42,708 bases of DNA, taken from IMG/VR virus record IMGVR_UViG_3300032323_000800, positions 1 through 42,708 of that record; one strand, 5' to 3'. Below, one piece after another: positions 10,801 through 38,372 of this stretch (the first letter of the stretch is position 1; the number at the start of each line of letters is the position of its first letter). Source of the DNA: a virus. The notes below the pieces were generated by a model, which was not told the origin of the DNA, ran no database searches, and was given only the letters and a program-made list of their open reading frames with translations. Position numbers and translations under genes: made by a program.

Positions 10801-13800
10801 CCTCTACTGGATTTTCTTGCTCAATTTCAAATCCTGGAGGACTGATGTTAGGATCGCGAATCTTACTACCGTCAACCCAAATACCGTTACCACCTAAGAA
10901 CGAAATAATAGAACAGTTTTGAATGTATGGTGATAGTGTAATTCTTGGTTTATCATTACGTAGACCAAAGTATCCATTTCTATCCACAGTGTCATCGTTG
11001 GCATCATCAAAGGCTACGCACCAGTTAAATGTATAACTTGGAACAAGATTTGCATCTAAACCGTCACGGAAAGTGAAACCAGTCATGTATGCGCCGTTAC
11101 GAATACGGAACATGTCCTTGCCAGCGTTTAGCGGACGCACTGTTACAGAGCGTAGACTGTCGCCTACCACAGAACATAAGTCTGGAATAATAATTGGGTT
11201 GTCAATGTAGAAGTCGCCTGCGGCACACTGAATAGTAATAGGTATCTGTTGGAACCTATTAGGATCTAATGCTGGTGCAGGATCTCCCTGGAATATATTA
11301 ATTACTACATCAAACAACTCGCCAATGCGTGTCATCTCAGCAGAGTCTACAGTGATACTTGGATATTTTACTTGCGTTGGCTCAGCACCCACTGGTGTAA
11401 AGAACGGACTGATAGTTTGATTAGCAGAAATCTGCATTGCAATACGCTTGGCGTACTTATTGGCTTCTACTGTTTCAAACAACTGCTGTTGACGAACCAA
11501 AAGTGCGCTGGCATTACCCGACTCGTAGTAGGCAAGTCCTGCTTCTCTTGTACGTTCGTTGCCTGACAGAATTAAGTCAAGGATAACGGCATCAACAATT
11601 AAGCCAGTGTCTCGTGAACAAATAGCCTGATTATAGGTAAATCCTGTAAATGTATCTGCAATATATTGTATAACAGCATTAATAATAGTATTTCTATTTG
11701 TAGTACGGAACGATGTCAAATTAGCAGTAATACCACCAGCAACCCATGATGTGTCCGGTAAAGATACCGCTGGTAGTGTACCAATGCCATCTGTAATCAC
11801 TGTGGTAATGATGTTGATCAGTCCTGTTAATTCGTTGGCTGTGGTTTGGTCAGCATTGCTACCTGAAGTTATCTGCGTAACAGCATTTTGATAAGTGTCT
11901 GTAATAGTTACACCACGTACTACACGATCTACCAAATAACTTAAACGTTGTATAGCCTGCGCTGTTACACTCTGCTGTCCTGGTACTTGGGTAGTATATG
12001 TACTACCATCAAGAGTTATCCAATAAGCATCTGCAGAACGCACTGTGGCGCTGTTACCTTGATATAAAATGTCATAGGTTAAGCCATCAACAATGTATCC
12101 TACATCACGTGAACACTTGACATTATCGTAGACAAAGTCCTGGAATGTAGTTTGAATAAATGTAATAGTTCCATCAATAATACCCTGACGATCTGCTATA
12201 AGTTCTGTACGTGCTGTCTGTAAATTTGCATCTGCAAAAGTTACATCTGGATTGATTGCTGTCGGTAGTGCAGTTAATCCGTTTTCAACTACGTTGGCAA
12301 TAATACCAATTAATTCTACTGCTTGATTAACTTCAGATGTTCCTGCCACTGCAGGCAGAGGACCTTCAAGAGAAATAGATTCAGCAGTGACAAAACTACC
12401 ACCAAAGTCTGGAGCAGGACTATTCCAAGTTACAAACGCTTCAAAAGTAGAAGCAAATGGCTCCCACTCTCCTGAGATTGTACCAGTATGTGTTGTACCA
12501 CCGACAACTACTGAAAAAGTCGATCCGACTGGGAATTCAATGATTGACACATAACCAAATCCGCTCCAATTTGTAGTGTTAAGACGAATTTTATTAACTG
12601 ATCCAAAATTAACTGTGCTGGATACTGTTACTCCGTTTGAAGTGTAATCTGTTGGACTGCTGTAAGTAACAGGGCTTAGTGAGATTGCTACGCCTACTTG
12701 AGGGACGCCGTTATATGCTTCTACTATGCTGATATTAATAATATTAGCAGTGTCTGCATGACTTCCGCCTAGTGTTTGTCCTACGGTTTTAGAAGTTGTT
12801 AGAGTTACAGTGCTAGTATTGATAACTGTGTTAGATACAGTAACTTCTGTGCCGTTAACGTAAATGTTGTAAGGTTCTGATACAGTGAACAAGGCTGTAA
12901 ATTTAGCAAGGAACGCTGTACCATTGCTGTTACCTGTGGCTTCTAATGTTAATGTATTTTCAGTCCAATCGGTAACTGTAAATGCATTAGTAGCACCTGA
13001 ACCTTTAGTATACACCACGCGATCCTGACTTGGAGTTACACTAACACCTAATAACACATTATCAACTATGGTTGATAGATACTCGTAGGCATTCTTAGTT
13101 TGGAATATTTGATCATTAACCTGTGTAGTTGTACCAACCCAGTATGCTCCTGCGGCTGTGCGTGTAGCAGTGTTACCGCCATACAGAATATCGTAAGTTA
13201 ATGCATCGGCAATATAACGTGTGTCTCTCTTACACTTATCACTGTCATAGATAAACTGGTCAAATGTTGTAGTTAGATATGTACTAGTGTTAGTAATAAT
13301 TGTTGGTTTAGCAGTTGCTAGAGCGTTAGTTGCTGAAACAATATTGGCATTTACCCAACTTAAACTTGGTAAAGTAGGTGTTGGTAGTGAATTAGTGTCG
13401 CCTGCAGTAATAACGTCAATATATAATTGTAAATCGTCGTTAATTAATGTGGCTTCAACTGTGGTAGCATTACCACCTGGACCTACGCCCTGTTGTGTTG
13501 TAGTGTTGCCCGATGTAGGTGTTACAGCAATACCTTGTACAACATTTTCAATTACTGTCTGTAAATGTGTATACGCATTAATTGTGGCAGTTGCCTGTCC
13601 AGCACCTAACTGGCTTACTGAACCAACAAAATATGCTCGAGCACCTGCTACGCTGGCCGAGTTACCACCGTAGATGATATCGTAAGTTAACCCGTCAACA
13701 ATAAATCCAACGTCTCTGCGGCATTTAACTTGATCGTAGGGTTCTGCTCCAACCAGGCCAACAGTAATCGCACTTATGCCTCGATTAAAACCACTTGTTG

Positions 13801-16381
13801 ACCCATATGGGTTAGATGTAAATGATATATATACCCATGCACCGGTAGGTCCAAAATCTGAAATTGATGTAATGGTTCCAGTAATTGTTAGTCCAGCATC
13901 ACGATCAGTGAACGAAACCGGTGTTCCGACGGATTGCGAAATAAAATTAGCATAACCGGCTGTATTAGGCCATCTACTTAAGTCAAGTCTTAGGAGTCCA
14001 TCTGTGGCCGGCGGATCTGCAGACCAGACTATTCCGTTGGTTGTGTAATCAACGCCTTCAGTGTACGTGGCTCCTGCTGGTGGAGTATTTGCGTTAACAT
14101 ATGCAACAACTTCATCTTGTAAAAATGCTCTGTTGTTAATCAATTGATTCTTAGCATTAATTACGTTTTGACTTGCGGTAGTTGGGTTAGGGAACACTAG
14201 TGCGTCGGCAGATGTTTCAGTGGATACTACTCCGTTTTGAAAAATATCAATAATTTCATCAAAGGCTGCGCTAACACGATTTACAGTAGTACCATTTGCG
14301 GCTACTGCTGTTAATGACTGTGTCTTAGCAAAACGAATGGCTTCTAAGGTTTGTAAATTTTGACCTGCTAACACATAACTAGAGTTAGCACGTTGGTAGG
14401 CTAATCCTGAAGTTACAGCGTTATAGTTTGTACCTAATGCGGCATCAAAACGTGCGGCATCGATAATAATACCTAAATCACGCTCGCAGGTGTCTTTAAC
14501 ACCATAGTTATAAACATAACCGGTAAACTGTTTGTTAATATAAGCAGTAACAGCATCTGCTAGGAAATTACGATTAGACTGTAATAAATCTCTTGCATCG
14601 ATATTGTTTTGATCAACGCCTGCAGGTGCGGTGAATACGATAGCATCTGTGCTGTCATCGCCTTCGGCATTGTCGAGAATATCTAAAATTTCATCAAATG
14701 CTAATGTTAATCGTTGTCTTGCTACGGCGCTAGAATCTACAGTAGCACTTAGCGATTGAACAGAAACGCCCATTGCAAAACCTGGGTAATCTGTGGTACC
14801 ATTTACTGTATAAGAGTTAACGTTGTCAAAGGTCCATGCCGTTGTTGTGGTAAATGTATATGTAATTCCGCCTGCAACAAAATTAAATGTTGTGCCTGAT
14901 GGTAATCCTATCAGTTGATTGAACAATGCAGTATTAGTCCACTGTGCTGTTGTTGCAGATAGTTGAGGAGTTCCTAAGTTAGTAAAACCTGTTCCGTTAG
15001 GTAAGTTATAATCCACTCCGCCAGTTGCAGAGAAAGATATAGGAGTTCCTGTTACACTGGCCAAGACTTGTGTCTTAGCATACTGGAATGCGGCTTTAGT
15101 CTGTAGTAACTGATTGTTTTGTAAGTAGTTTGCGTTAGCACGTAGGTATGCACGGCCTGCAACTACACTATTATAGTTTGTACCTAGCACCATGTCAAAA
15201 CCAGCGGCATCTAGCAATAAGCCAGTATCACGACGGCATTTGTCTGTGTCGTAGGTAAAGTCGCTGAAGTTTGTGTTAATCCAAGCAATTACTTCAGCAC
15301 GTAAGAATGATCTGTTAGCCTGTAGTTTATCTTTGGCTGCAGAACGATTTGCATCTACACCTGTTGGGTTAGGATAAACAATAGCATCAGTGCTGTCGTC
15401 AATACCTTCATTTTCAAGAATATCAACGATTTCGTTGAAAGCAAGATTATAACGACTCAATGCGGTAGAATTGGTTACATAGGCAAGGCCCTCTTCTTGT
15501 GCTTTTAAAATAGCAGATTTTGTTTGAAGAATTTGATTGTCTATTAGATAAGCACTGTTAGCACGACGATATGAAAGTCCTGTGGTCACAGCATTAAAGT
15601 TTGTACCTAATGTAAAGTCAAATCCCACTGCATCAATAATAAAACCTAGATCTCTACGGCATTTATCTTCGTCATATTGGAAGTTAACAAAGTTGGCATC
15701 AATCCATTTAATAACTTGACTTTGGATAAAACTACGATTGGCTTCTAGTAAACGTTTTGCATTATAAGCACTTTGCCCTGGATCTGTTAGAGGACGTAGA
15801 CCTAAACTGGCTGCAATTTGAGCACCGCGTTTTAGTGTACGAACTGGAGCATTGATACCATCATTAGCATCGTCACCTTTTCTATCACTAACGTAAACAC
15901 GGTTACCACCAAAACTATCTGCTGAGCCCCATTCTAGATTGCCGTTACCATCTAGGCTTAATACACTGCGATCAATAGGTTGGAAACTAGGAAGTTTTAA
16001 TGAGTAACTAAAACTTACATCGTCGGGTGCTTTAATTTCTACATAGTTACTGTTGTTAGCGTCATTAAATCGGATCGCTTTTTGATCCTTCATTGTTAAT
16101 CGTTCTGTAAACTCAGTACCTGTAGCAGTTACTTCAAACTCTGTTACACCATCAACTTTTGCAATAATTTTACTAGGTGTAGCACCGCCATCGTCGCTGG
16201 CTGTAATGCTAGTATCACGTTCAAAAGTTGTTTTTGTAATGTCTAATACAGTATTGTCTTCTTTCTTTAAAAAAACTTTACCGTCTGCGGTATTCAGCGC
16301 AATTTCGCCTTGTACCAGTGAACCTGCGCTTGGTGCAACTCCTGAGTTGCTGTTACGCTTAAAAAGGATTCTAGATGCCAT
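4859..16381 (-). CDS. Giant modular tail-fibre / virion-surface protein (3840 aa)
   Basis: This is one of the longest ORFs expected in a phage of this type. The ATG at 16381-16379 has a GAGGAA ribosome binding site. Modules in order: a fibre N-terminus (MASRILFKRNSNSG..., then QGEIALNTADGKVF); a beta-helix-like start (VYVSDRKGDDANDGINAPV, about residues 162-180); seven copies of a module centred on CxRDxGxIxD (about 240-1600); a second beta-helix-like stretch (IIIPDLCSVVGDSLRS, about 1715-1780); a long Thr/Ser/Gly-rich beta region; one FNLVDANATTVNF repeat; two TVTNTMLAGSIANAKL repeats; and a Cys-containing C-terminal domain starting at YADLAENY (about 3715). The composition suggests a trimeric, elongated receptor-binding or surface fibre. 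The C-terminal domain may be a chaperone or knob. Function is inferred from architecture only. Confidence 0.85.
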   Translation of the reverse strand: MASRILFKRNSNSGVAPSAGSLVQGEIALNTADGKVFLKKEDNTVLDITKTTFERDTSITASDDGGATPSKIIAKVDGVTEFEVTATGTEFTERLTMKDQKAIRFNDANNSNYVEIKAPDDVSFSYSLKLPSFQPIDRSVLSLDGNGNLEWGSADSFGGNRVYVSDRKGDDANDGINAPVRTLKRGAQIAASLGLRPLTDPGQSAYNAKRLLEANRSFIQSQVIKWIDANFVNFQYDEDKCRRDLGFIIDAVGFDFTLGTNFNAVTTGLSYRRANSAYLIDNQILQTKSAILKAQEEGLAYVTNSTALSRYNLAFNEIVDILENEGIDDSTDAIVYPNPTGVDANRSAAKDKLQANRSFLRAEVIAWINTNFSDFTYDTDKCRRDTGLLLDAAGFDMVLGTNYNSVVAGRAYLRANANYLQNNQLLQTKAAFQYAKTQVLASVTGTPISFSATGGVDYNLPNGTGFTNLGTPQLSATTAQWTNTALFNQLIGLPSGTTFNFVAGGITYTFTTTTAWTFDNVNSYTVNGTTDYPGFAMGVSVQSLSATVDSSAVARQRLTLAFDEILDILDNAEGDDSTDAIVFTAPAGVDQNNIDARDLLQSNRNFLADAVTAYINKQFTGYVYNYGVKDTCERDLGIIIDAARFDAALGTNYNAVTSGLAYQRANSSYVLAGQNLQTLEAIRFAKTQSLTAVAANGTTVNRVSAAFDEIIDIFQNGVVSTETSADALVFPNPTTASQNVINAKNQLINNRAFLQDEVVAYVNANTPPAGATYTEGVDYTTNGIVWSADPPATDGLLRLDLSRWPNTAGYANFISQSVGTPVSFTDRDAGLTITGTITSISDFGPTGAWVYISFTSNPYGSTSGFNRGISAITVGLVGAEPYDQVKCRRDVGFIVDGLTYDIIYGGNSASVAGARAYFVGSVSQLGAGQATATINAYTHLQTVIENVVQGIAVTPTSGNTTTQQGVGPGGNATTVEATLINDDLQLYIDVITAGDTNSLPTPTLPSLSWVNANIVSATNALATAKPTIITNTSTYLTTTFDQFIYDSDKCKRDTRYIADALTYDILYGGNTATRTAAGAYWVGTTTQVNDQIFQTKNAYEYLSTIVDNVLLGVSVTPSQDRVVYTKGSGATNAFTVTDWTENTLTLEATGNSNGTAFLAKFTALFTVSEPYNIYVNGTEVTVSNTVINTSTVTLTTSKTVGQTLGGSHADTANIINISIVEAYNGVPQVGVAISLSPVTYSSPTDYTSNGVTVSSTVNFGSVNKIRLNTTNWSGFGYVSIIEFPVGSTFSVVVGGTTHTGTISGEWEPFASTFEAFVTWNSPAPDFGGSFVTAESISLEGPLPAVAGTSEVNQAVELIGIIANVVENGLTALPTAINPDVTFADANLQTARTELIADRQGIIDGTITFIQTTFQDFVYDNVKCSRDVGYIVDGLTYDILYQGNSATVRSADAYWITLDGSTYTTQVPGQQSVTAQAIQRLSYLVDRVVRGVTITDTYQNAVTQITSGSNADQTTANELTGLINIITTVITDGIGTLPAVSLPDTSWVAGGITANLTSFRTTNRNTIINAVIQYIADTFTGFTYNQAICSRDTGLIVDAVILDLILSGNERTREAGLAYYESGNASALLVRQQQLFETVEANKYAKRIAMQISANQTISPFFTPVGAEPTQVKYPSITVDSAEMTRIGELFDVVINIFQGDPAPALDPNRFQQIPITIQCAAGDFYIDNPIIIPDLCSVVGDSLRSVTVRPLNAGKDMFRIRNGAYMTGFTFRDGLDANLVPSYTFNWCVAFDDANDDTVDRNGYFGLRNDKPRITLSPYIQNCSIISFLGGNGIWVDGSKIRDPNISPPGFEIEQENPVEGATPPQGKSMVANAFTMVSFGGTGWLCSNDGYAQVVSCFQIFCLNGSYTQSGGYLSITNSATNFGLYALRSSGFSPNAFSFDRAFVANTGTSGGRVTLTTIGQARIPTAQFVLKFRNADTDADVTNNFKSASTELTFNAATDVNPVSNLITIDNHGLLNGDSVVYESDYLTVSGNTVIPGMIDNSIYYVSIVSLNTFRLFNDNGLAFPVDITGTGIGTQRITKNVEEFFVETVETSHNVYQELTLPPGPSYTFGIGTAITGTTGAFTNNAYVLSWNNTTRKLIISNELTTVGEEQQRVKFTTLSTITTDQSPSPFTAIPISAVADRTDLYTATFKTNSTKTASQIQSPGGTIGLKCNFHRPSILNSSSHTWEYAGSGTDYNALPQNGGQGVLAFEQFTELPGRVYSSGTDEFGNFKVGDFIKAENNTGKITFRTEVTVGQLNVLRLSLSSIEISAISNDIGLGDNEIGGASDTRLPTQRSVRLFINNRLGNVLDKAVSTNAVAGALVQLNSQGLINADLIPPLRGVTTYATTEFGGRLLLSEKIPPVEVFNGDNASETYQQQTLTLTGGTLTAVVGDIITQNGTTGSGRVKEAVTGGTSVTLYGVTGTFTEDNAAQTIRKNGTTVTGVYPSGLTAVAEIVDNYFLNNDNSSQFLILDGPGYAFTNGNNIKSAIGLAEGEITEYREGVLYSLNLSTLNGGSSYTPGSGSQTYTNVSLTNVSGTGTGATADITVTNGAVSDVSIISGGSGYDAGDIVSASSSNIGGSGSGFQITVSRADTRLYVELIGDKTKFNASTASPDFFADNNAPVDTIANLATFATFTFNAQSTGSGGDVNTTTSRITLSGHGLSNGDAVIYSNQSNTSIGGLVNNRGYFIKVIDSSTVELYSNYALGAGDQILFTSSSTGNHTLTRNIVTIGTTNLCFFRIAGHGLSAGDPVLISGSDLPAGLVSGNYYFIGSVSVNTFTLHTLRSNALASVGGTTTGKVTVTDVGSGSATFTLQNVTFTDTINDSSKFAANWGSVSVTTIDASNVVSGVFATSRLAGTGTANDQTFLRGDSEWALAVQGIRKVTDSAISLTGDSYVDGLNTVYYNVPVLDVEKVDGDGGDTNFTNYGVARYDKSQFTVGRALNTPADPGTISIKTGVIDAGFLSGQPGTYYTNPDNLSKAVPVLKGGTGLTTYNQGDLIVATAGGALTQLGIGAINSVLTSNGTNPSWSTTLALGGDLTAPGAVFNGNIQSTSTTTGSVRITGGIGMTGNAFIGGNLTVSGAINFNSSLSITGDDAAITLSPGGTGTVSIQPAGVTTIGTLGIQTSLVGNLNAVANQQTINFAPTGTLSAITINPAGTLTLGAGAAGGIVVSSDITSSGDIAVNGGDITTTATTFNLVDANATTVNFARAGTAITIGANNLGTTTVRNNLTVTGDLTVNGTNSTISATSVTIADNAIQLAQRTTPTDAVANGGGIILKGTTDHTILWDTANANWTLSEHVNISTGKAFKVNNVNVLTATGLGTSVVSSSLTSVGTLSSGTWNAGVIAGQYGGTGVANTGKTITIGGNLTTSGAFNTTITVTNTTNVTLPTSGTLVGSNDTGTVTNTMLAGSIANAKLTNSSITLNGTLVNLGDTVTITSNLPNALTVGTGLVLDSGTTFNGSAARTISIANTVATTSGIQTLTNKTFTDSSTLFQDDADNTKKMSFELSGVSTGVTRTLTVPNVNGTIITTGDTSTVTNTMLAGSIANAKLANSTISGISLGSNLNTLTAGSFLTWSVGTNYNGSAASTLAVNATNANTGNTVVNRDASGNFSAGTITATLSGLASAATNIRVSATDYAGSTSSAANTVALRDANQDIFANLFRGTATTARYADLAENYRADAEIEAGTVVCFGGEAEVTTCNVDGCRKVAGIVSTNPAYLMNSDLQGEKVVALALQGRVPCKVTGKIRKGDMLVAAGNGHARAEEDPKLGQVIGKALENFDGESGVIEVVVGRM
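5594..5638 (-). repeat. 45-bp direct repeat, copy 1 (encodes NTMLAGSIANAKL)
   Basis: This segment is nearly identical (two differences by eye) to 5996-6040 in the same orientation, about 400 bp away. Both encode the peptide VTNTMLAGSIANAKL inside the giant fibre protein. It is a recent or conserved internal duplication and a possible site for in-frame recombination. Confidence 0.85.
5996..6040 (-). repeat. 45-bp direct repeat, copy 2 (encodes NTMLAGSIANAKL)
   Basis: Second copy of the repeat at 5594-5638. The differences I see are silent (GCA/GCG and GCC/GCT-type changes in the plus-strand reading), so protein-level selection is preserving the module. Confidence 0.85.
11580..15665 (-). repeat. 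Seven copies of a CxRDxGxIxD protein module in the giant fibre
   Basis: Seven related segments are encoded near 15655, 15235, 14485, 13725, 13235, 12115 and 11620. Each contains Cys-x-Arg-Asp-x-Gly/Arg-x-Ile/Leu-x-Asp followed by a D-x-x-(L/Y)-G-(T/G)-N stretch and an Ala-Tyr pair, for example CRRDLGFIIDAVGFDFTLG and CSRDVGYIVDGLTYDILY. They fall into two subtypes: LGTNxNxV (the first three) and YxGNSA/YGGNTA (later copies). The copies are spaced unevenly and have other beta-rich inserts between them. Function is unknown. Confidence 0.85.
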
Positions 16382-16444: not shown

Positions 16445-19400
16445 TTAGTAAGTACCACAATCAATTACGTCTGTCCAAACTGGAACACCTTGTGCAGTAG
16501 TAGTCAATATTGCATTACTTGTTTGCTGGTTAGTTCCTGTGTATGGATTTTCATAATCACTGCCCGCTGTGCTTTCTAAAGGTGAAGTACTATTACCATA
16601 TACTATACCTCTAGCGTTAAATTGACCTGCTCCAGTACCGCCGCTAGGCACAGCCAATTCGTTATCAAACAACACAGTACCGCGCAGTGTTAATGCATTA
16701 GCACTTAAATTGCCTTCAATGTTTACGTTTTCGCTAACAGCCAAACCGCCTGTGACTACTACAGAACCAGTGGTTGAATCTGTACTACTAATACCAGCAG
16801 TAAATCTAGTTTGGCCATTAGAATCTAATGTAGTAAACGCACCGGTACCTCTTACGCTGGCTCCAATATTTGTGTTATTAATATTACCAGTTGTAGTTGG
16901 ATTTACAGTTAAACCGCCCTGTGGTTCTATAATTACTCGTCCAGTTCCTTGAGGACTGATAACAAAGTCATTGTCTTCGCCACTGGTGTTTAAAGATGTC
17001 AGTGTTAAGTTACCATTAACTGTTAAATCTTGATTAATTTCAGTGTTACCGTCAACTGTTAATGCATGATTAATAGTAGTTGTACCTGAACTAGCACCAA
17101 TATTGATAGATGAAGCGGTTCCTGCAAAGTAAATGGTAGTTGCTGTAGTGTCTGCAATGTAAGCCGTAGTGTCTGATACACTAATACGGCTAACGCCACT
17201 ATCTGCGGCGCCCACTGTTAGTACACCAAATACATTTGCATCATGTTTGATGTTTGTCTGGCCACCTAAAATGCTACCAATATTAATGGTACTGGCTTCT
17301 CCACCAAAATTAATATTTTGTGCTACAGTATTCAATAGATCAAAACTGGTGCTTTCTGTTTCAACACTAGAACCAACGTTAGTACCGCCTAAGAAGTTAA
17401 ATTTATCACCGTCAAAACTAATGGTACCGCCTGCTAAGTCGATAGTGCCACCGCTTAGATACAAATCACGGAAACGATTTGTTGGACTACCTAAGTCGTA
17501 AGCGATATTAGTATCTGGAATAATATGTCCACCTACTGTAGTTTGCCCTGTAACAGTTAATGCATCACCCACAGTAACCATACTTGTAACAGCACCAATA
17601 TTAACTGTGGCAGCATTGCCTGCAAAATTAACAGTTGTAGCGCCGCTGTTAATTAAATTAAATGAGCTTTGATTGGTAGTAATATCGCCACCTTGTACTT
17701 CTAAATCTCCTACTACTTGTAGATCGTGTTTGACACTGGTAGTACCACTACTTGAACCAATATTAACTTGAGTGGCTGCGCCACCAAAATTAATAGTAGT
17801 TGCGGTGGTATCTAGCAGATTAAATGTAGATTGATTTGTAGTCAAATCTCCACCTTTGATCTGTAGATCTCCTTCTAGTGTGGTACTGCCGTCTACTGTT
17901 AAATTGTTGTTAACATTAGTTGTGCCTGTTGTAGAACCAATTTCTACTAAGGTTGCGGCACCGCCCATGTATAGGTTTTCAACAAAAGTATTTGTTAGAT
18001 AAAAACTTGTGTCTGCACTATCAATACGTGCTACTGTTGAATCTGCTGAACCTAGTGTTAATACACCGGCAACATTCAAACTGTGATTAATATTTGTGGA
18101 ACCATTTGTGTTTCCAATATTAACCTGTGTTGCGGCGCCACCTAAATTAATCGTATTAGCAGTGGTATTCAACAAATTAAATGTTAGAGCACTGGTGTTT
18201 AAATCGGCGCCGTCGATTCTTAAGTCGTCTTCGATAACAACATCCTGACGGAATGTAGTTGTACCAGTTCCTGAACCGATGGTAATTGTTGAGGCTGCTC
18301 CAGCAAAGTTAACAGTGGTTGCTGTTTCGTTAATTAAATTAAAGGTTGTTTGATCTGTGATTAAATCACCGCCTTTAACAGTTAAATCACCGTCAAGAAT
18401 TGTTGCCGCACTCTTGATTGTTGTTGTGCCAGTTGCTTCACCAACGTTGATAATTGTGGCTGCGGCAAATGCACTAACTGTAGTTGCGTTGGCTGGTAAC
18501 AGATTAAAGTTAACATTACTTGTGCCTAATGTGTCACTGTTAATAGTTAAATTTTGACCAACAGTTAAGTTATTGTTAACAGTAGTTGTACCTAGACTGC
18601 TACCAATGCTGATAGTTTGTGCGCTACCACCCATGTTTAATTCGGATGCGCCGCTGGTTACGAAATTAAACACACTTTGATTTGTAGTAATATCGCCACC
18701 GTTTACCGCAAGGTCGCCATCAACTTGAACAGTGCTGTTGCGTAGTTGAATTGTACCTGTATCAGCACCCATTACTATACTAGTTGCTGCCTGACCAATG
18801 TTTAATGTTGTAGCAGTGTCGTTGATCAAATTAAATGTTGTTTGATTTGTAACTAAATCACCACCCTGAATTTCCACATCGAATGCAAAAGTTCCTTGAC
18901 CTTCAACTAATAAGTCATTGGCTGTGATATCTCCAGTTATACCATTTAAAATAACTGTGCTGTTGTCTCCAAAAAAACTGCCTTTGAAATTACCTACCAC
19001 ATCACCTGCTCGAATTTCTCCGTTTAATGTAGTAATACTGTTTACGTTACCAATATTAATAGTATTAGCAGAACCTGCAAAGTTTACTGTAGTTACTGTG
19101 TCGTTGATTAAATTAAATGATAGAGCATTAGTGGTTAGATTACCGGCTGCTCCAGTGAACACAGAGTTTACATCTAAATCTCCGTTGATCTGTGTATTAT
19201 TTCTAATAGTTGTTGTGCCGTTTGGCTGACCTAAAGAATTTACAGCACCCATAGTTATTGCTGTTGCTTGTCCACCAAAATTAATAGTTGTTGCTGTGTT
19301 GTTTATTAATTCAAATGTTGTTGGCACAGTATTCACTGGTCCAACACCTTCCCAACTAATTGCTAGTACCTCACCGCCGCTGACTCCATCAACTACTGGT

Positions 19401-22400
19401 TCTACAGCATTTACAATAGTAACTGTAATGTCATTTGCTGGTCTTGTTCCACCAATAAAAGTACCATCGATTGTTACTATTTCTCCTATACGATAATAGT
19501 TTCCTGGAGCAATAATTCTAATATCTCTAACAATGCCAGTACCATACTCGATGTCGACGTCCAACGCCATAGAGGTACCGCTTAGTGTTGTACTTGGTGC
19601 ACCAATACCGCCGCCTGGACCTTGTAGTAATCCGCTGAATGTTTGTACGTTTGGACGAGGATTAATTTTACCCACATCACCAACAATACCAACTCGTAGT
19701 GTGTTACCAATAATGTCTGCATCGTTGGCTAGATTAACTCGGCCACTAGGTCCACCAATTGTAACACTGTTAGAACTGTTGGCAATAGTGAACGTTTCCA
19801 ACGTTGTTGGATACATATCCAACACGGTTTGTGTTGTAAGAATATCACCTTCTGTGGTTAGGTCGTTGGTTACTACCAGTTGGTCTGCTATTGTAATAGT
19901 ACTAGTAGGAGCACCAATAGTTGCGGCAGTTTCACTAGGAAATAGTTCTGTTTCTGTTAATTTGTCTACGCCGTCAATCATGTATGCTTCTAGCGTTGCT
20001 AGATTCATACTTTCGCTAGATGTCCATGCTACATTAGCATCATCATATTGAAAAGTTTTGTTTGTTGTACCTTTAACAGTAATACCGCCACCGTTGGCTG
20101 TGATGTCTGTGGCGCCGCCACCATCGAATGTTATTGTACCTGCTGTGTTAGCAGTTGATGCTGTTACGGTAATCTGTGTTGCGCTGTCAACACTGGCAAT
20201 AACGGCACTAGTACCAAATGCACCAGTACCTGCTGTCTTAGTTACAGTTTGTCCTGATATTAAACCTGTAGTTGTACTTAGACCTGTAACTGTAGTCGTA
20301 GTAGCACTGCTTGTAATATTACCTGTAATTCCAATGACTGCGGCTACGCTGGCTAATTCTAAATTCTTATCATCAACTTGAATAGTGCTTGAATTAATAC
20401 TGGTAGTTGTACCGTTAACAGTTAAGTTGCCAGTAATAGTTGTGTTACCACTAACTGCTAGGTCGTTTCTTACAGTTGTAGTACCTGTACTGTCACCGAT
20501 AAACAATGATGTGGCTGCTCCGGCAAAGTTAACTGTAGTAGCATTGGTATTAATTAAACTAAATGATGTTTGATTTGTGGTTAAATTGCCACCGTCAACA
20601 TTTAAATCTAAGTCAACATCTAGATTGTTATTAATGCTAGTAGTACCAGTAGCACTACCGATATCAACTTGAGTGGCTGCACCACCAATATTAACTGTAG
20701 TTGCTGTTGTGTTTAGTAAATTAAATGTTGCTTGATTAGTTGTTAAATCGCCACCATTTACGGCAAGATCTCCAGTTAATGTAACATTACCTGTAAGACC
20801 GGTAGTGCCTGTCACAGAGAAGGTACCTGTAACATTGGTATTACTCTGTAATTCAATAGTACCGGTACCTGCTGTGTCGATCTCTATGTTTGTATTGCTG
20901 TTAGTTGTACGAATACGATTGTCTTTGATAGAAATTTGTCCGTTGTCAACTTGATCAACATGGATGGTGCGCCATTGTTTAGCACTTGCGCCTAGATCAT
21001 ATGTTTGATCTGTGTCAGGAATCAAGTTACTAGTAAAATCTGCTTGCACAGTAACAGTGTCAATAGGTGTATCACCAATAACGATGTTACCTGCTAGTGT
21101 AATATTTCCACCAACATCTAAATTACCTGTAACACTAACATCTGCATTTAAAATAATATCTGAAGAACCACTTGGATCAATAGTAATATTACCAGATGAT
21201 GACGACAAACTATTGCCGGCTAATGTTAAATTACCAGTGCTAACTTGTGTTGGATCAACTACAGTAGTTTGTATACCGTTGGTAAAGTTAATACCTGACA
21301 ATGAACTAACATCAAATGCTGGTGCTTGGAACGTTACGTTACCTGTTTCAAAATCTACGCTGAATAAATCACCAACACGCCATGTGCCTGTCTGATCAAC
21401 TGAGTTAAAATATATACGACCACCGTTGAGTTCAATAACTTCATTGGCTTGTACTACAGCACTCTTGTTATTAGTTAAGTCTGCACCTGTACCGATGTAG
21501 GCAAAGTTGTGTGCCATTAACTGCAATCTTACGTCATCACCGTCGGCTTTAGCACCTTGGTTACCGTAAATATTAGCGGATGCAATAGAACGTAGTTCTG
21601 CGGCAAACTCTGAACGGTCGTATCTTGCTATGCTAGTAGCAGTTGTACCAGATGTTAGACCTAAAATGCTTCCGCCTGTACCTGGAGTAAAATCTTCGCC
21701 TTCTAGTAAATCAAATTTACCATCTACTAATATTGTGCTGCCATTAACAGTTTCAACTGGAATATTAAACACAGTTGATCCGTCAGTAGACGTGTACTGA
21801 ATATTTTCACCTGCTTGGAAACCTGTACCACTTACGCCAGCAAATGTAATACGTGTTTTACCATCACCGCCTCGACCTGATGAAGTTACTAGACCTTCAA
21901 TGGCTAAATCTGCAAAGTATGTAAAACAAGTTAGCCATTCAACACGGGCACCGTTTTTCATTATTAAACCGCGGCTGTTTGGTACAATAAATGTACACTC
22001 GTTAAACAACATTGCGGCTTCTAAACTAGCACGAGTAACTTTTGCACCGTCCACTTCAGCACCACGACCTGCATCGCCTGTTAAGAAACCGTATGGATCA
22101 TTTGCTGTTGGGCTAGAACCACGGCATAGCACTGTAACACGTTCAATGTATGGTGAACGTGTGGTAATTACTGCACCGTTTTGGAAACGAAATGCGTAAC
22201 CTGTGTCGCCTATTGAATCATAAAAGAAATCTGCAACTGTTAAATCAACAACACCGCTTTCACCTGACAACAAGAATGCATCTTTGTTGTTTGTACCTAC
22301 TGTAGGAACAATCTTCGTTGCTCGAATACCAACACCAACAATACTAACACCTGCTGGTACTGTTAATGGAAATACTTCTGTAAATGTACCAGAACCAACT

Positions 22401-23401
22401 TTAATAGTATCACCGGCAACTGCTACTGTTAATGCTTTTTTAACTGTGGCAAATGCGCCTTGAATACTAGTACCTGGTTCTAAGTCGTCGCCGTCTTCTG
22501 TAACATAGTATGTTTTACCTTCAACACGGTCAAAGGATAAATCATTAATTTTGTTAATGTATAAATTATTCCAACGTTGTCCAGTACTACCTAAATCAAA
22601 ACTTAAACTTGCATTTGGAATAATATCAGATGTAAAATCTGCTTGTACTGTGACTGTGTCAACAGGAGCATCACCAATAATAAGATTTCCGCCTAGTGTG
22701 ATATCTCCTGTAACATCTAAGTTACCTTGAATATCCATGTCTGTTAATGCAACAACTTTACCAGTGCCGGCGGCATCTAATTCTAAATTTGCATTACTGT
22801 CAACAGTAGTTACAGTATTACCTTGGAATACTACATCGCCGCCGGCAAAACCGCCGTCAGCAAAAATAACTTGTGTGCCGTCGCCATTAGTAATAGTAAG
22901 GCTTGTAGCGTTTGCTTCTAGTTTTGCAGGACCTAGATAGATACTGTTACCACTGAAGTAACCGTCTTTAAATCTTAAACTTGGAGTACCTAAATCGTAG
23001 ATACCATCAGCCGACGGAATAACATCTTGATCTACATAACTTAGATCATACCCTGCGGCATAAAGTTCCCAGTTAGAATTAATTGTAGATGGAAGAACAA
23101 GAGGAGGATTGTTAGTGTTATTATCAGTGACAGAAATCCATGTACTAGATAGATAATTTACTACTGCATTTTTTTGATAGGTTGTTCCAGAATTCCAACT
23201 GCCTTTCCAACTAAAGCCTTCAGACATCTTGGTCCATTTGCCGCTATCTCTATCTGCAGGAAATCCTGCAGAAGTGTGTGGAGTTTCGCAGACCCAGCCT
23301 TGGCCGTTGTACTCGACGATATCATCTTTAACGTATGCTGTAGTAGTTGTCCAACTACCTTTCCATACAAACTTTAATCTACCTAATTTAAAATCTGCCA
23401 T
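16445..23401 (-). CDS. Giant repetitive tail-fibre protein (2318 aa)
   Basis: The ATG at 23401 follows an AGAGGAAAAC ribosome binding site, 12 bases after the previous gene's stop. The N-terminus has two short Trp-rich units (FVWKGSWTTTTAYVKDDIV and FSWKGSWNSGTTYQKNAVV, about residues 11-90) that resemble CBM5/12-like folds. Next come YDLGTPSLRFKDGY-type motifs and a beta-helix-like region starting at TYYVTEDGDDLEPGTS (about 295-560) containing PLTVPAGVSIVGVG. The rest is dominated by about 14 degenerate repeats of roughly 45-90 residues with the core FNLINxTATTVNFAGxATxINIG followed by GTTTVRNNL. The same repeat occurs twice in the 408-residue neighbour and once in the 3840-residue neighbour. 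This architecture suits a long beta-structured fibre shaft. Receptor-binding or surface-decoration function is an inference. Confidence 0.85.
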   Translation of the reverse strand: MADFKLGRLKFVWKGSWTTTTAYVKDDIVEYNGQGWVCETPHTSAGFPADRDSGKWTKMSEGFSWKGSWNSGTTYQKNAVVNYLSSTWISVTDNNTNNPPLVLPSTINSNWELYAAGYDLSYVDQDVIPSADGIYDLGTPSLRFKDGYFSGNSIYLGPAKLEANATSLTITNGDGTQVIFADGGFAGGDVVFQGNTVTTVDSNANLELDAAGTGKVVALTDMDIQGNLDVTGDITLGGNLIIGDAPVDTVTVQADFTSDIIPNASLSFDLGSTGQRWNNLYINKINDLSFDRVEGKTYYVTEDGDDLEPGTSIQGAFATVKKALTVAVAGDTIKVGSGTFTEVFPLTVPAGVSIVGVGIRATKIVPTVGTNNKDAFLLSGESGVVDLTVADFFYDSIGDTGYAFRFQNGAVITTRSPYIERVTVLCRGSSPTANDPYGFLTGDAGRGAEVDGAKVTRASLEAAMLFNECTFIVPNSRGLIMKNGARVEWLTCFTYFADLAIEGLVTSSGRGGDGKTRITFAGVSGTGFQAGENIQYTSTDGSTVFNIPVETVNGSTILVDGKFDLLEGEDFTPGTGGSILGLTSGTTATSIARYDRSEFAAELRSIASANIYGNQGAKADGDDVRLQLMAHNFAYIGTGADLTNNKSAVVQANEVIELNGGRIYFNSVDQTGTWRVGDLFSVDFETGNVTFQAPAFDVSSLSGINFTNGIQTTVVDPTQVSTGNLTLAGNSLSSSSGNITIDPSGSSDIILNADVSVTGNLDVGGNITLAGNIVIGDTPIDTVTVQADFTSNLIPDTDQTYDLGASAKQWRTIHVDQVDNGQISIKDNRIRTTNSNTNIEIDTAGTGTIELQSNTNVTGTFSVTGTTGLTGNVTLTGDLAVNGGDLTTNQATFNLLNTTATTVNIGGAATQVDIGSATGTTSINNNLDVDLDLNVDGGNLTTNQTSFSLINTNATTVNFAGAATSLFIGDSTGTTTVRNDLAVSGNTTITGNLTVNGTTTSINSSTIQVDDKNLELASVAAVIGITGNITSSATTTTVTGLSTTTGLISGQTVTKTAGTGAFGTSAVIASVDSATQITVTASTANTAGTITFDGGGATDITANGGGITVKGTTNKTFQYDDANVAWTSSESMNLATLEAYMIDGVDKLTETELFPSETAATIGAPTSTITIADQLVVTNDLTTEGDILTTQTVLDMYPTTLETFTIANSSNSVTIGGPSGRVNLANDADIIGNTLRVGIVGDVGKINPRPNVQTFSGLLQGPGGGIGAPSTTLSGTSMALDVDIEYGTGIVRDIRIIAPGNYYRIGEIVTIDGTFIGGTRPANDITVTIVNAVEPVVDGVSGGEVLAISWEGVGPVNTVPTTFELINNTATTINFGGQATAITMGAVNSLGQPNGTTTIRNNTQINGDLDVNSVFTGAAGNLTTNALSFNLINDTVTTVNFAGSANTINIGNVNSITTLNGEIRAGDVVGNFKGSFFGDNSTVILNGITGDITANDLLVEGQGTFAFDVEIQGGDLVTNQTTFNLINDTATTLNIGQAATSIVMGADTGTIQLRNSTVQVDGDLAVNGGDITTNQSVFNFVTSGASELNMGGSAQTISIGSSLGTTTVNNNLTVGQNLTINSDTLGTSNVNFNLLPANATTVSAFAAATIINVGEATGTTTIKSAATILDGDLTVKGGDLITDQTTFNLINETATTVNFAGAASTITIGSGTGTTTFRQDVVIEDDLRIDGADLNTSALTFNLLNTTANTINLGGAATQVNIGNTNGSTNINHSLNVAGVLTLGSADSTVARIDSADTSFYLTNTFVENLYMGGAATLVEIGSTTGTTNVNNNLTVDGSTTLEGDLQIKGGDLTTNQSTFNLLDTTATTINFGGAATQVNIGSSSGTTSVKHDLQVVGDLEVQGGDITTNQSSFNLINSGATTVNFAGNAATVNIGAVTSMVTVGDALTVTGQTTVGGHIIPDTNIAYDLGSPTNRFRDLYLSGGTIDLAGGTISFDGDKFNFLGGTNVGSSVETESTSFDLLNTVAQNINFGGEASTINIGSILGGQTNIKHDANVFGVLTVGAADSGVSRISVSDTTAYIADTTATTIYFAGTASSINIGASSGTTTINHALTVDGNTEINQDLTVNGNLTLTSLNTSGEDNDFVISPQGTGRVIIEPQGGLTVNPTTTGNINNTNIGASVRGTGAFTTLDSNGQTRFTAGISSTDSTTGSVVVTGGLAVSENVNIEGNLSANALTLRGTVLFDNELAVPSGGTGAGQFNARGIVYGNSTSPLESTAGSDYENPYTGTNQQTSNAILTTTAQGVPVWTDVIDCGTY
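17050..20770 (-). repeat. About 14 tandem-like FNLINxTATTVNF repeats
   Basis: Within the 2318-residue protein, units begin GGDLTTNQxTFNL, continue xTATTVNFAGAATxINIG, and end with GTTTVxNNL plus a linker (TVxGDLxVxGGDL) to the next copy. Copies are degenerate in both DNA and protein but keep the Thr/Asn/Gly pattern, indicating a repeating beta-structure. Single units in this array could be gained or lost without breaking frame. Confidence 0.85.
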
Positions 23402-34624: not shown

Positions 34625-37222
34625 TTAACCTGGTCTTAGGTTTCCAGAATTTCGTTTGGCATATGTAGCAGTTTTTTCCACGGACGGTGCTACACGTTCT
34701 TGTATAGCAACTAAGTTTGCCATGTTATTATTTAAGCGATCAACCTTGCCGTTAAGGTCGGTCATGAGCGTTTCTACAGTTTTTTCTTTGGCTACTTTTT
34801 CTCCGCCAAGTTTGGCTGTGATAGTTGTACCAATTTCTTTAATTGCTCCTGACACTGCTTCAGTTATACTAGGGGAAGAGATGGATTTCATTTCTTCTCG
34901 CACTGAAGCCAATGTGCTACTAAGTCTACGTATCTTGGCTGTGCCAATATCTAAATTAGTTAACTGAGTATCAGTGAATGAAAGATTGTTTAAAGGCATA
35001 TCTGTGATAGCCAATTTAAATGCACTGAATCCTTCTGCGGCTTTGCCTAAATCATTACCAACAACTGCAAACTCTCTAAGTTTTTCTATAGGAGATTTGG
35101 CTCCAAATAATCCTGCAATACCATCAACTAAACTGCCAAAGGCATTGGTAATTCCGCCCACTGCGCTAGTAGTTCCAAATGCCAATAAGCCTCCGCCCAC
35201 AGCGGCCATGCCAACACCTACAGATTTTAATTTTTCTCCGTCTAGTGTTTCTAAAGATTTCATTCCTTCCGCTAGTGTAGGCAATGCCTTGCCCATTAAC
35301 CAACTTGCGGCAGCGATGCCTGCACCTATAATAGCAATAGATCCTGAAAAAATTGTGGCTCCTACTAATATCTTAGGATTACTAAATGCTTCAAACCCTT
35401 TGGCTAAGCCAGTCATTATTCCGCCGGCTAATCCACCTAAACCCTGACCAAGTCCTGTACCCAGTGAGGCTGCTCCACGACCCACACCACGACCTGCTGT
35501 GGCTGCTCCTGCACCTGCACCGCCACCAAGTGCGCCTGTAAGTTTAGACACTAGTACGGCTTTAATTGCGGCAACGCCTATTGCGGCAGCAAATGCTAAC
35601 CCCATAGCAGTTAACACTGTTGGATGTGTAAACAATTTTAATATTGCTTCGCCCATAATAGGAACCAGTGTGTCAACAATATCCGATCCTAACTTTTTAA
35701 ACATAGGACCAACTCCACCGTTATCAGAAGATAAGATTTCAAATAGTCCTTTAAAATAATTTCCAACTCTTTCCATGAATTCTTTGAGTTTTTTGCCTGC
35801 ACCCTTTTCAGAATCCATTAACCCTGCAAAACCTCCAACAGAATCTAAGAAAGTTTTAAGTGCTGGTTCAAGATAACTCATGAATATGTTTCTAAGATTT
35901 AAGAAAGTTCTATCCACACCAGCGGCTGCTTTTTCTGCATTTTCAACTGCTTCAAGTTGCGCCCTTTCTGCATCAGTTAAAGACTCAGCCATGACTTTCA
36001 TACCAGCCATTTCTGTAGCGGCCTGATTAGTTTCTTTACCTAACACACCTAACAATGCTGTTTGTCTAAAGAATGCATTACCCATACCAGAGGCTGCACG
36101 TTGTCCGCTGTTGAATGCGGCTGCTGTACCTTCAAATGTTCCTCTATTTTGACTAAAGGCCGCGGCCTGTCTTGCAATTTCAGGATACAGTCTTGCATAA
36201 CTTCTGCTGACATTGTCTAGACCTCTACCACCGCTGGCTACCAATTTAGCAAATACTTCAGTGTTACCTCCAGCGGCCTTTAATGCTGTCAGCGTTCTTT
36301 GATATTCTTTACGCTGTTGTTCGTTCATGCCTAACATAACATTCTTAACGTTTTTGTCTGCTAGTTGTTGCTTCTGCAACTCCATAACTTCTTTACGTTG
36401 TAAGCCTGTGGCTCTGGCCAGTTGATCTAACTCCATGAGATAGTCTTCGGAGCCCATTCTCAGTTCCATGTCAGACATCTTTTGAGCTCGGCCCAACTGT
36501 GTCTGCAACTCAATGTAGTTAACCAGTCCGCTGGCTGTTTCTTCCATGGTAAAACCAAGACGTTCTAATCTTGGCTGTACTTCTTTCTGTATGCTACCAC
36601 TAAGTGCGGCAAAACGTTTAATACCTGCGGCAGCATTGCCTTCAAGGCCTGCCAATACTGTGGCATTGCCCATTACTATATTTTTAAAATCGTCGAGACT
36701 TAGACCTGCGTCCACAGCGGCAAATCTCACAGCATTGATGTCGTTGCCAAGATCTGCACCCACCGAACTCAATGTTCTAAAATTATCTATGCTGTCCTGT
36801 GCGGCTTGACCAAATGCACCAATAATAGGACCTAATATTGGTATTCCACTAAGTGCATTAGTAAGGTCTGTGAGCTTAGGAGTAGCAGTGGCAAATATGG
36901 CTGTAAAACCTCGGCCCAACACACGGCTTACACCGTCTAAATCTTCAATGAATCGCTTGCGTTTTTCCTGCTCTTTGTCCAGCAGTTTGTTGATGTTATC
37001 TCGCTCTTTTTCTTCTTCTTTAAGTTTTTTAAGAGCGGCTACATGCCCGTCATTGCTTTTCTTTAGAGCATCTTCGTACATCTTTTGCAGACGTCCGGCA
37101 TTACCCTTGTTTGGGTTAGATGCGTTGACTGCTTGTACTAGTAACTGGAGAGTCGTTTCCGTGGCAGCGTTTTTTAAAACAACTTCTTCACTGCCTATAA
37201 AACCTTCTACTTCACCGGGCAT
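34625..37222 (-). CDS. Tail tape measure protein (gp29-like)
   Basis: Product is 865 residues. The architecture is that of a tape measure: a helical, charged N-terminus with a coiled-coil stretch (KKLKEEEKERDNINKLLDKE, about residues 60-95), a long helical middle, then hydrophobic Gly/Ala-rich segments (LAFAAAIGVAAIKAVLV, then GGAGAGAATAGRGVGRG, and ATIFSGSIAIIGAGIAAASWL, about residues 535-660), and a polar coiled-coil end. In T4, gp29 fills this role. At about 1.5 angstrom per residue, a fully helical chain would span roughly 130 nm, longer than the T4 tail. It is divergently placed from the gp26-type hub/chaperone gene, as tape measures usually are next to their chaperones. I did not confirm homology to gp29 itself. 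Confidence 0.75.
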   Translation of the reverse strand: MPGEVEGFIGSEEVVLKNAATETTLQLLVQAVNASNPNKGNAGRLQKMYEDALKKSNDGHVAALKKLKEEEKERDNINKLLDKEQEKRKRFIEDLDGVSRVLGRGFTAIFATATPKLTDLTNALSGIPILGPIIGAFGQAAQDSIDNFRTLSSVGADLGNDINAVRFAAVDAGLSLDDFKNIVMGNATVLAGLEGNAAAGIKRFAALSGSIQKEVQPRLERLGFTMEETASGLVNYIELQTQLGRAQKMSDMELRMGSEDYLMELDQLARATGLQRKEVMELQKQQLADKNVKNVMLGMNEQQRKEYQRTLTALKAAGGNTEVFAKLVASGGRGLDNVSRSYARLYPEIARQAAAFSQNRGTFEGTAAAFNSGQRAASGMGNAFFRQTALLGVLGKETNQAATEMAGMKVMAESLTDAERAQLEAVENAEKAAAGVDRTFLNLRNIFMSYLEPALKTFLDSVGGFAGLMDSEKGAGKKLKEFMERVGNYFKGLFEILSSDNGGVGPMFKKLGSDIVDTLVPIMGEAILKLFTHPTVLTAMGLAFAAAIGVAAIKAVLVSKLTGALGGGAGAGAATAGRGVGRGAASLGTGLGQGLGGLAGGIMTGLAKGFEAFSNPKILVGATIFSGSIAIIGAGIAAASWLMGKALPTLAEGMKSLETLDGEKLKSVGVGMAAVGGGLLAFGTTSAVGGITNAFGSLVDGIAGLFGAKSPIEKLREFAVVGNDLGKAAEGFSAFKLAITDMPLNNLSFTDTQLTNLDIGTAKIRRLSSTLASVREEMKSISSPSITEAVSGAIKEIGTTITAKLGGEKVAKEKTVETLMTDLNGKVDRLNNNMANLVAIQERVAPSVEKTATYAKRNSGNLRPG

Positions 37223-37290: not shown

Positions 37291-38148
37291 ATGGAAAATC
37301 GTCAACAAAACCCGCTACAGAAATACTTTAGGCAGCCTAAAATTTATGTTCGTTTGCCTAGTTCAGGTAACTTCTATCCGCCGGGCAGTTTAGAAAAATC
37401 CGAAACTGGCGAATACCCTGTGTATTCAATGACAGCCAAAGATGAAATTATCATCAAAACACCAGATGCGTTGTTAAACGGTCAGGCCACTGTAGACGTA
37501 ATTCAAAGTTGTGTGCCCAACATCAAAGATGCTTGGAAGATTCCTAGTATAGATTTAGATGCACTGCTTGTGGCCATAAGAATTGCCACATACGGAGAAT
37601 CTTTAGATGTAACCACATTACTGCCTAATACACAAGAAACACGTACTTACGAAACTGACCTACGTACTGTGTTAGACCGTTTGTTAAACGCTACATTTGA
37701 CCCTGAAGTAAAAATTAATAATGATTTAACAGTGCTTTTACGTCCGTTGACCTATCACGAGTTTACAAAGAATAATATTCGTACAGTGGAAGAACAAAGA
37801 ATTATCCGCATTGTCAACGACGAAAAGATGGAAGAAGACGAAAAATTAACTAGATTTGCAGAAAGTTTCCGTAAACTTACAGAAGTTACTATTGGAATGA
37901 TCAGTCAAGGCATTGAAAAAATTGTTACACCTGACGGAGATGTCAGCGATCCATTGTTTATTCAAGAGTTTGTTAATAACTCCGATAAAAACACACTGAC
38001 TGCTATTATCGAACATTTAGATAGTCAACGTAAAAAATTTGCCATTGAACCATTTAAGGTCCAAACTACGGAAGAAGAACAAGCACTAGGCGCACCTACA
38101 GAATTTGAAGTTCCTATCACTTTGGATAGCTCAAATTTTTTCGTATAA
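37291..38148 (+). CDS. T4 gp26-type baseplate hub / tape-measure chaperone protein
   Basis: Product is 285 residues. The N-terminus has YVRLPSSGNFYPPGSL, the signature opening of a T4-type baseplate hub family (gp26/gp51-like, which I associate with the Pfam T4_baseplate family). Then come MTAKDEIIIKTPDALLNGQA and AIRIATYGESLDV. The middle is helical (LLNATFDPEVKINNDLTVL, then RPLTYHEFT). Proteins of this type encoded next to the tape measure are thought to act in assembly rather than in the finished tail. The last sense codons form an A AAT TTT slippery heptamer at 38133-38139. A -1 shift there would bypass the TAA at 38146-38148 and add the downstream ORF. A late promoter and GGAG site lie upstream. 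Confidence 0.75.
   Translation: MENRQQNPLQKYFRQPKIYVRLPSSGNFYPPGSLEKSETGEYPVYSMTAKDEIIIKTPDALLNGQATVDVIQSCVPNIKDAWKIPSIDLDALLVAIRIATYGESLDVTTLLPNTQETRTYETDLRTVLDRLLNATFDPEVKINNDLTVLLRPLTYHEFTKNNIRTVEEQRIIRIVNDEKMEEDEKLTRFAESFRKLTEVTIGMISQGIEKIVTPDGDVSDPLFIQEFVNNSDKNTLTAIIEHLDSQRKKFAIEPFKVQTTEEEQALGAPTEFEVPITLDSSNFFV
38133..38139 (+). other. Predicted -1 programmed frameshift site (A AAT TTT)
   Basis: The heptamer fits X XXY YYZ in the reading frame of the gp26-type gene (codons AAT TTT). The -1 frame has a stop at 38127-38129, just before the site, and is then open without interruption to the stop at 38370-38372. Downstream, GGCT-CCTT-AGCC (38149-38160) or GCCTC-AAACTCGAA-GAGGC (38158-38176) could form stimulatory hairpins, although they are modest. 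Shifting would make a 360-residue fusion: 283 residues of the gp26-type protein plus 77 from the -1 frame. Confidence 0.6.
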
Positions 38149-38183
38149 GGCTCCTTAGCCTCAAACTCGAAGAGGCATTGAAT

Positions 38184-38372
38184 ATGGTTAAGGAGCTCGA
38201 CGGAGAAGTTCTGCAATTAAAATCAGAACTCTTTAAAATATGTTGGTATATGCGTGGTGGAATAACTGCTGACGAAGTGTTTGCACTAACCTACGAAGAC
38301 CGTACATTGATTGCAGATATTGTCAAAGACAATCTTGAAACTACTAAAAAGACCGGAATGGCTTTCTTTTAA
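38184..38372 (+). CDS. Small protein, probable C-terminal part of a frameshifted tail assembly chaperone
   Basis: From ATG 38184 (AGAGG eight bases upstream) the product is 62 residues. It contains LKSELFKICWYMRGGITADE, then ALTYEDRTLIADIVKDN, and ends KTGMAFF. I recognise the YMRGG...NxExTKKTG pattern as a small conserved ORF that follows the gp26-type gene in T4-like marine phages. The frame is open back to 38130, so the ORF can also be read as the -1 extension of the upstream gene. The extra residues before the ATG (FRIRLLSLKLEEALN) would continue the helix. Both independent initiation and frameshift fusion are possible. Its stop overlaps that of the convergent gene in a TTAA. Confidence 0.65.
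   Translation: MVKELDGEVLQLKSELFKICWYMRGGITADEVFALTYEDRTLIADIVKDNLETTKKTGMAFF

Follow-up and report, generated by a model that had tools for sequence, protein, structure and literature searches.

Two adjacent open reading frames on the plus strand of a viral genome, a gp26-type gene and a small ORF directly downstream of it, very probably constitute a single gene (probability about 0.9) from which, judging by sequence comparison, -1 programmed ribosomal frameshifting would produce a short and a long tail assembly chaperone. The window, that is, the whole stretch of DNA analysed, comprises the 42,708 nt of IMG/VR record IMGVR_UViG_3300032323_000800. A first-pass annotation of this DNA had proposed a -1 shift joining the two frames and had read the predicted products, of 285 aa and 360 aa, as a short/long pair resembling G and GT. 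Comparative evidence from 55 lineages supports the shift and argues for the pair.

The gp26-type gene (37291-38148, +) ends with the stop codon TAA at 38146-38148 and would encode the short, TAC-N-like form of 285 aa. Its protein matches PF12322 (T4_baseplate) above the cut-off (hmmscan, E 5.2e-10; 39.8 bits against a cut-off of 24.5) as well as the baseplate hub family phrog_150 (E 4.6e-13), and its AF2 model reaches a pLDDT of 85.5 and a pTM of 0.79. As had been described, the -1 frame has a stop ahead of the slippery sequence (TAG, 38127-38129) and is then open for 80 codons, from 38130 to the stop at 38370-38372. Read from the slip site, the -1 frame extension (38142-38372, +) consists of 76 aa plus the stop and is modelled by AF2 entirely as helices (pLDDT 89.5). 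It includes the 62-aa ORF that starts at Met 38184 (38184-38372, +), the ATG of which is kept only in the closest relatives. Two overlapping heptamers lie in the phase of the gp26-type gene, A_AAT_TTT (38133-38139, +) and T_TTT_TTC (38136-38142, +), the latter one codon ahead of the stop; a slip at either would give the same 360-aa fusion.

We compared the locus with relatives from marine phages, jumbo phages and cyanophages, 185 loci in all, of which 55 were retained as non-redundant (<75% identity in the extension). A run of six T residues was found in identical phase in 55/55 non-redundant loci, with the heptamer being T_TTT_TTC in 51, T_TTT_TTT in three and T_TTT_TTG in one. Neither the run nor its -1 relation, the loss of which the first-pass annotation had named as evidence against the shift, was lost in any of these relatives. 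A scan with the gp26-type protein alone recovered 29 IMG/VR loci and a scan with the -1 frame peptide 53, with matches starting at the slip site or within a few residues of it; together with further queries, T_TTT_TTC was in phase in 91/91 loci. Scans with PBECO4-type, Phosso-type and phiAS5-type proteins added few loci. T_TTT_TTN was also present in 84/84 cyanophage- and phiAS5-type IMG/VR loci, in the annotated jumbo and other phages Phosso, Atu_ph07, PA5oct, SP27/PBECO4 and Munch, and in P-SSM5, Vibrio VmeM-32, phiAS5, Rhizobium LG08 and RL38J1, Vibrio 2.275.O, XacN1, SCTP-2, RAS14, CBB, RaK2 and an uncultured 595-kb phage.

The codon ahead of the two Phe codons took ten different forms in the 55 loci (besides AAT, these were AGT, GAT, CAT, GCT, CGT, GGT, ACT, TAT and CTT), each with T as its final base. 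The A_AAT_TTT heptamer, put forward initially as the slip site, is thus present in phase in the window but ruled out as the conserved element, since varied codons precede Phe-Phe in the relatives, and a slip would most probably take place at U_UUU_UUC rather than at A_AAU_UUU. Conditioned on each amino acid and on the genes' own codon usage, the constant final T of the preceding codon corresponds to log10 P = -16.5 and the constant use of TTT for the first Phe to log10 P = -9.1, values that are indicative only because the lineages are related. These values bear on the possibility of chance, which the first-pass annotation had left standing as an explanation.

The -1 frame itself bears the marks of a coding sequence. 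It is open over 60-82 codons in 55/55 non-redundant loci, so that none of the relatives has an in-frame stop between the two ORFs, as had been suggested to check, while the other two frames are open over that span in 0/110 cases. For a measure of selection we used 23 independent pairs of ungapped sequences. Over codons 5-15 past the slip, upstream of the first ATG of the window (38184), pN/pS was 0.46 in the -1 frame compared to 0.80 and 1.69 in the other frames, and codon pairs with stops were absent from the -1 frame and numbered 37 and 42 in the others. Farther downstream, pN/pS in the -1 frame fell to 0.30 and 0.26. Purifying selection therefore acts on the -1 frame even ahead of Met 38184, and because conservation of the protein starts at the slip site, the small ORF, correctly recognized as conserved from the outset, is not confined to the part that follows this methionine. 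Synonymous differences per site in the gp26 frame, about 0.5-0.8 at most codons, dropped to 0.17 in the last four codons and then to zero over the last three at the slip, which bears out the expectation of reduced synonymous change in the overlap.

Downstream of the heptamer, a stimulatory hairpin is predicted at 38149-38197 (+; -20.9 kcal/mol). Its outer stem of 12 bp pairs 38149-38160 with 38186-38197, and it is separated from the heptamer by a spacer of 6 nt (38143-38148, +) that includes the short-form stop. Structure was assessed in the stretch 5 to 75 nt past the heptamer of the 55 loci. Against dinucleotide shuffles the mean z was -2.47 (s.e. 0.26), compared to -0.05 in a downstream control, and upstream of the heptamer the value of -0.29 was hardly above noise. 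Shuffling of synonymous codons such that the -1 protein was kept gave a mean z of -2.70 (s.e. 0.25), with -5.2 at the window locus and -0.05 and -0.29 in downstream controls. In this latter test the signal was absent in about 8 of the 55 loci, including those of RaK2 and two further loci (L040 and L054). The predicted element starts 5-7 nt past the heptamer in 41/54 cases, and compensatory pairs occur within register groups (GC/CG/AT and TA/GC/CG at single positions, for example). Percentages of paired positions are circular because the register groups were picked by their best stem, and the shuffle test is the only independent test of structure. Both a conserved in-phase heptamer of the X_XXY_YYZ type with structure about 5-9 nt downstream and a -1 frame conserved as coding sequence from the point of the shift onward, as expected for -1 programmed ribosomal frameshifting, were thus found.

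Instead of forming part of a fusion, the small ORF might be a separate gene, expressed by re-initiation or from its own start at Met 38184 or TTG 38178, a reading that we consider very unlikely. The 62-aa ORF does have an ATG at 38184 with a weak AGAGG upstream, a separate gp51 gene is annotated in many records, and Pseudomonas phage Cygsa01, which is without the heptamer, has an annotated gp51 gene that starts at TAATG. In addition, 10/55 relatives have an ATG that overlaps the stop or lies next to it (ATGA or TAATG), and re-initiation may therefore add to expression in those loci. On the other hand, the in-phase T run is kept in 55/55 loci and the -1 frame shows conservation and selection ahead of any start. 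In 11/55 loci the -1 frame lacks any ATG, GTG or TTG at a distance of up to 60 nt from the stop, and the entire 75-codon extension of PA5oct contains zero start codons. At the window locus the stop stands in the context ATAAGG, without an overlapping start, and ATG 38184 directly adjoins the hairpin at its 3' arm, so that its use as an independent start is possible but unlikely.

Even if a fusion is made, the conserved core of the signal is a homopolymer run, on which RNA polymerase could slip and gain or lose transcript bases with a similar outcome at the protein level. We regard such transcriptional slippage as very improbable. A run of six T residues is short for transcriptional slippage in bacteria, and the run is placed in phase for tandem slippage in the P and A sites with a hairpin at 5-7 nt, which is the layout of ribosomal -1 frameshifting, even though phase alone is no independent proof against polymerase slippage because the lineages share ancestry. 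From this layout we infer that the slippage is ribosomal.

According to the frameshifting model, ribosomes translating the gp26-type frame would arrive at U_UUU_UUC (38136-38142), where most of them would read one more codon and stop, yielding the 285-aa short form as the major product. A minority, slowed by the hairpin 6 nt farther on, would let the pairing of both tRNAs move back by one base (to UUU UUU) and read on in the -1 frame, yielding the 360-aa long form with its helical C-terminal domain as the minor product. We infer this ratio of short to long form and the efficiency of the shift behind it. The two products would correspond to TAC-N and TAC-NC chaperones and would work like gpG and gpGT of phage lambda, acting on the tape measure protein or on the start of hub and tube and departing before maturation. 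The lambda slip site is G_GGA_AAG. The gene order at the locus studied here differs from that of lambda.

The chaperone assignment would follow from homology to gp26 and gp51 of T4. In T4, two PF12322 genes, 26 (208 aa) and 51 (249 aa), lie back to back on opposite strands. In hhalign, the fusion of the cyanophage/phiAS5 type aligned with the gp51 family along its entire length, through the slip point (P 99, E 3e-20). Taken by itself, the extension of this type matched the C-terminal end of gp51 (P 96, E 1e-9). The cyanophage-type fusion furthermore matched gp51 of Aeromonas phage 25 (tblastn, E 1e-5) and phrog_634, 'baseplate hub assembly catalyst' (E 2e-29). On these alignments, T4 gp26 corresponds to the short form and gp51 to the long form. 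For the window-type extension the match to gp51 was weak (hhalign, P 31, E 5e-4), and its role consequently rests mainly on its position. Whole-genome searches detected two PF12322 genes in all five T4-type genomes (T4, Stupor, RB43, Moon and Aeromonas 25) and exactly one in 14 of the other 15 genomes; in SCTP-2 there were zero at threshold, and its protein is apparently too divergent.

T4 gene 26 was considered as a frameshift gene as well and was excluded: its end, GAG TTC TTT GAG, contains no heptamer, the next gene, 25, starts at TAATG, and a separate gene on the other strand encodes gp51. In Cygsa01 (L106, 1072-1982), gp26 without a slip heptamer is followed by a gp51-type ORF at TAATG; with its one gene, this phage seems, by its sequence, to have lost the frameshift. 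The chances appear to us evenly balanced that the gp26/gp51 chaperones of T4-like phages, jumbo phages among them, go back to one cassette of U_UUU_UUC and hairpin, and that the two-gene state of T4 was derived by duplication. In this ancestral-cassette reading, the 5' arm of the hairpin would have been fixed 5-7 nt downstream while its 3' partner moved among lineages, giving an element of about 32 to 70 nt, a scenario that might prove right or wrong with equal ease. In gp26 of many relatives (L085, L088 and L094, for example), pairs of Cys residues resemble a zinc ribbon (CPxC ... CxxC); they are lost in the window protein.

Frameshifting could also be real and its products nevertheless be structural subunits of the hub rather than assembly chaperones, which we think rather unlikely. 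Baseplate hub subunit is the common annotation of gp26 (phrog_150), and genetic studies cited in PMC3004832 place gp26 in the hub; however, a table in that review has gp26 and gp51 among the hub assembly chaperones, and a 2022 study calls them tail assembly chaperones, according to the papers that cite it. One record already labels gp26 and gp51 as tape measure protein assembly chaperones. A conflicting assignment is found in Citrobacter phage Moon (L193, 1656-3156), where, in GenBank, gp27 and a 'GT-like fusion' of gp27 and gp28 carry the label of tape measure chaperones, at odds with gp26/gp51 as the chaperone pair.

Structural comparisons gave no further anchor. A Foldseek search of the gp26 model against the PDB, known chaperones included, returned nothing below E 0.48, gp26/gp51 matched no solved structure by fold or sequence, and the fold of the extension gave nothing significant among viral models. 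These comparisons do not support homology to chaperones of the lambda or HK97 type. The gp26 model resembles other phage hub proteins. In BFVD it matched proteins of about 450-550 aa from Ralstonia RSF1 and RP12 and from Erwinia Special G (E about 1e-6 to 1e-5), which, as far as the models indicate, are possible distant homologues of the gp26-type chaperone family.

G-T frameshifting was described in 2016 as widely conserved in long-tailed phages except T4 (PMC5009743). The first-pass annotation knew of no description for the T4-type gp26 family, but the kind had been published: tail assembly chaperones of T4-like phages were treated by Vladimirov, Gautam and Davidson (Virology 2022), and as reported by citing papers they share PF12322, short and long forms and poly-T signals with the present locus, which is therefore an added case of a known kind. 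PMC10885494 cites this study for T4-like phages in which a short gene accompanies a longer, fused one in place of a frameshift, and PMC12846349 cites it for poly-T slip signals in T4-like TAC-N genes. T4 and its near relatives differ in having separate genes 26 and 51, whereas here one gene and a frameshift would be used. The TAC locus of Vandenendeviridae and Andersonviridae (phage Adele, PMC12846349), another phage group, similarly combines a -1 shift with a conserved poly-T (GTTTTT), and its -1 frame is without a stop in any genome (PMC12846349). In the open-access literature we did not find a description of U_UUU_UUC conservation reaching as far as jumbo phages, of a conserved hairpin whose partner shifts or of the contrast of one gene and two genes across genomes. 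Frameshifting would explain why gene 26 is followed by a tiny 'gp51' gene, or by nothing, in many T4-like genomes including cyanophages, because the piece, which annotations usually treat as a protein of its own or as a hypothetical one, would be the tail that the shift adds to the long chaperone. Frameshifting would also offer a precise signal to test in phages from marine hosts and elsewhere, and would allow shifting and gene duplication to be compared as two natural ways of making one protein pair.

The proposed location next to a tape measure gene did not hold up in its simple form, as the pair at the window locus does not lie directly upstream of a tape measure gene on the same strand. 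The neighbour (34625-37222, -; 865 aa) is divergent from the gp26-type gene and weakly tape-measure-like (phrog_167, E 0.08); it belongs to phrog_14121, 'virion structural protein', filed under head and packaging. T4 genes 26 and 51 are likewise not directly ahead of 29. The neighbour may be a real tape measure gene that is wrongly filed. Its orthologues occupy the equivalent position in SP27 and Munch, and the RaK2 neighbour is annotated as similar to tape measure protein. The window also contains two giant ORFs, one of 3840 aa (4859-16381, -) and one of 2318 aa (16445-23401, -).
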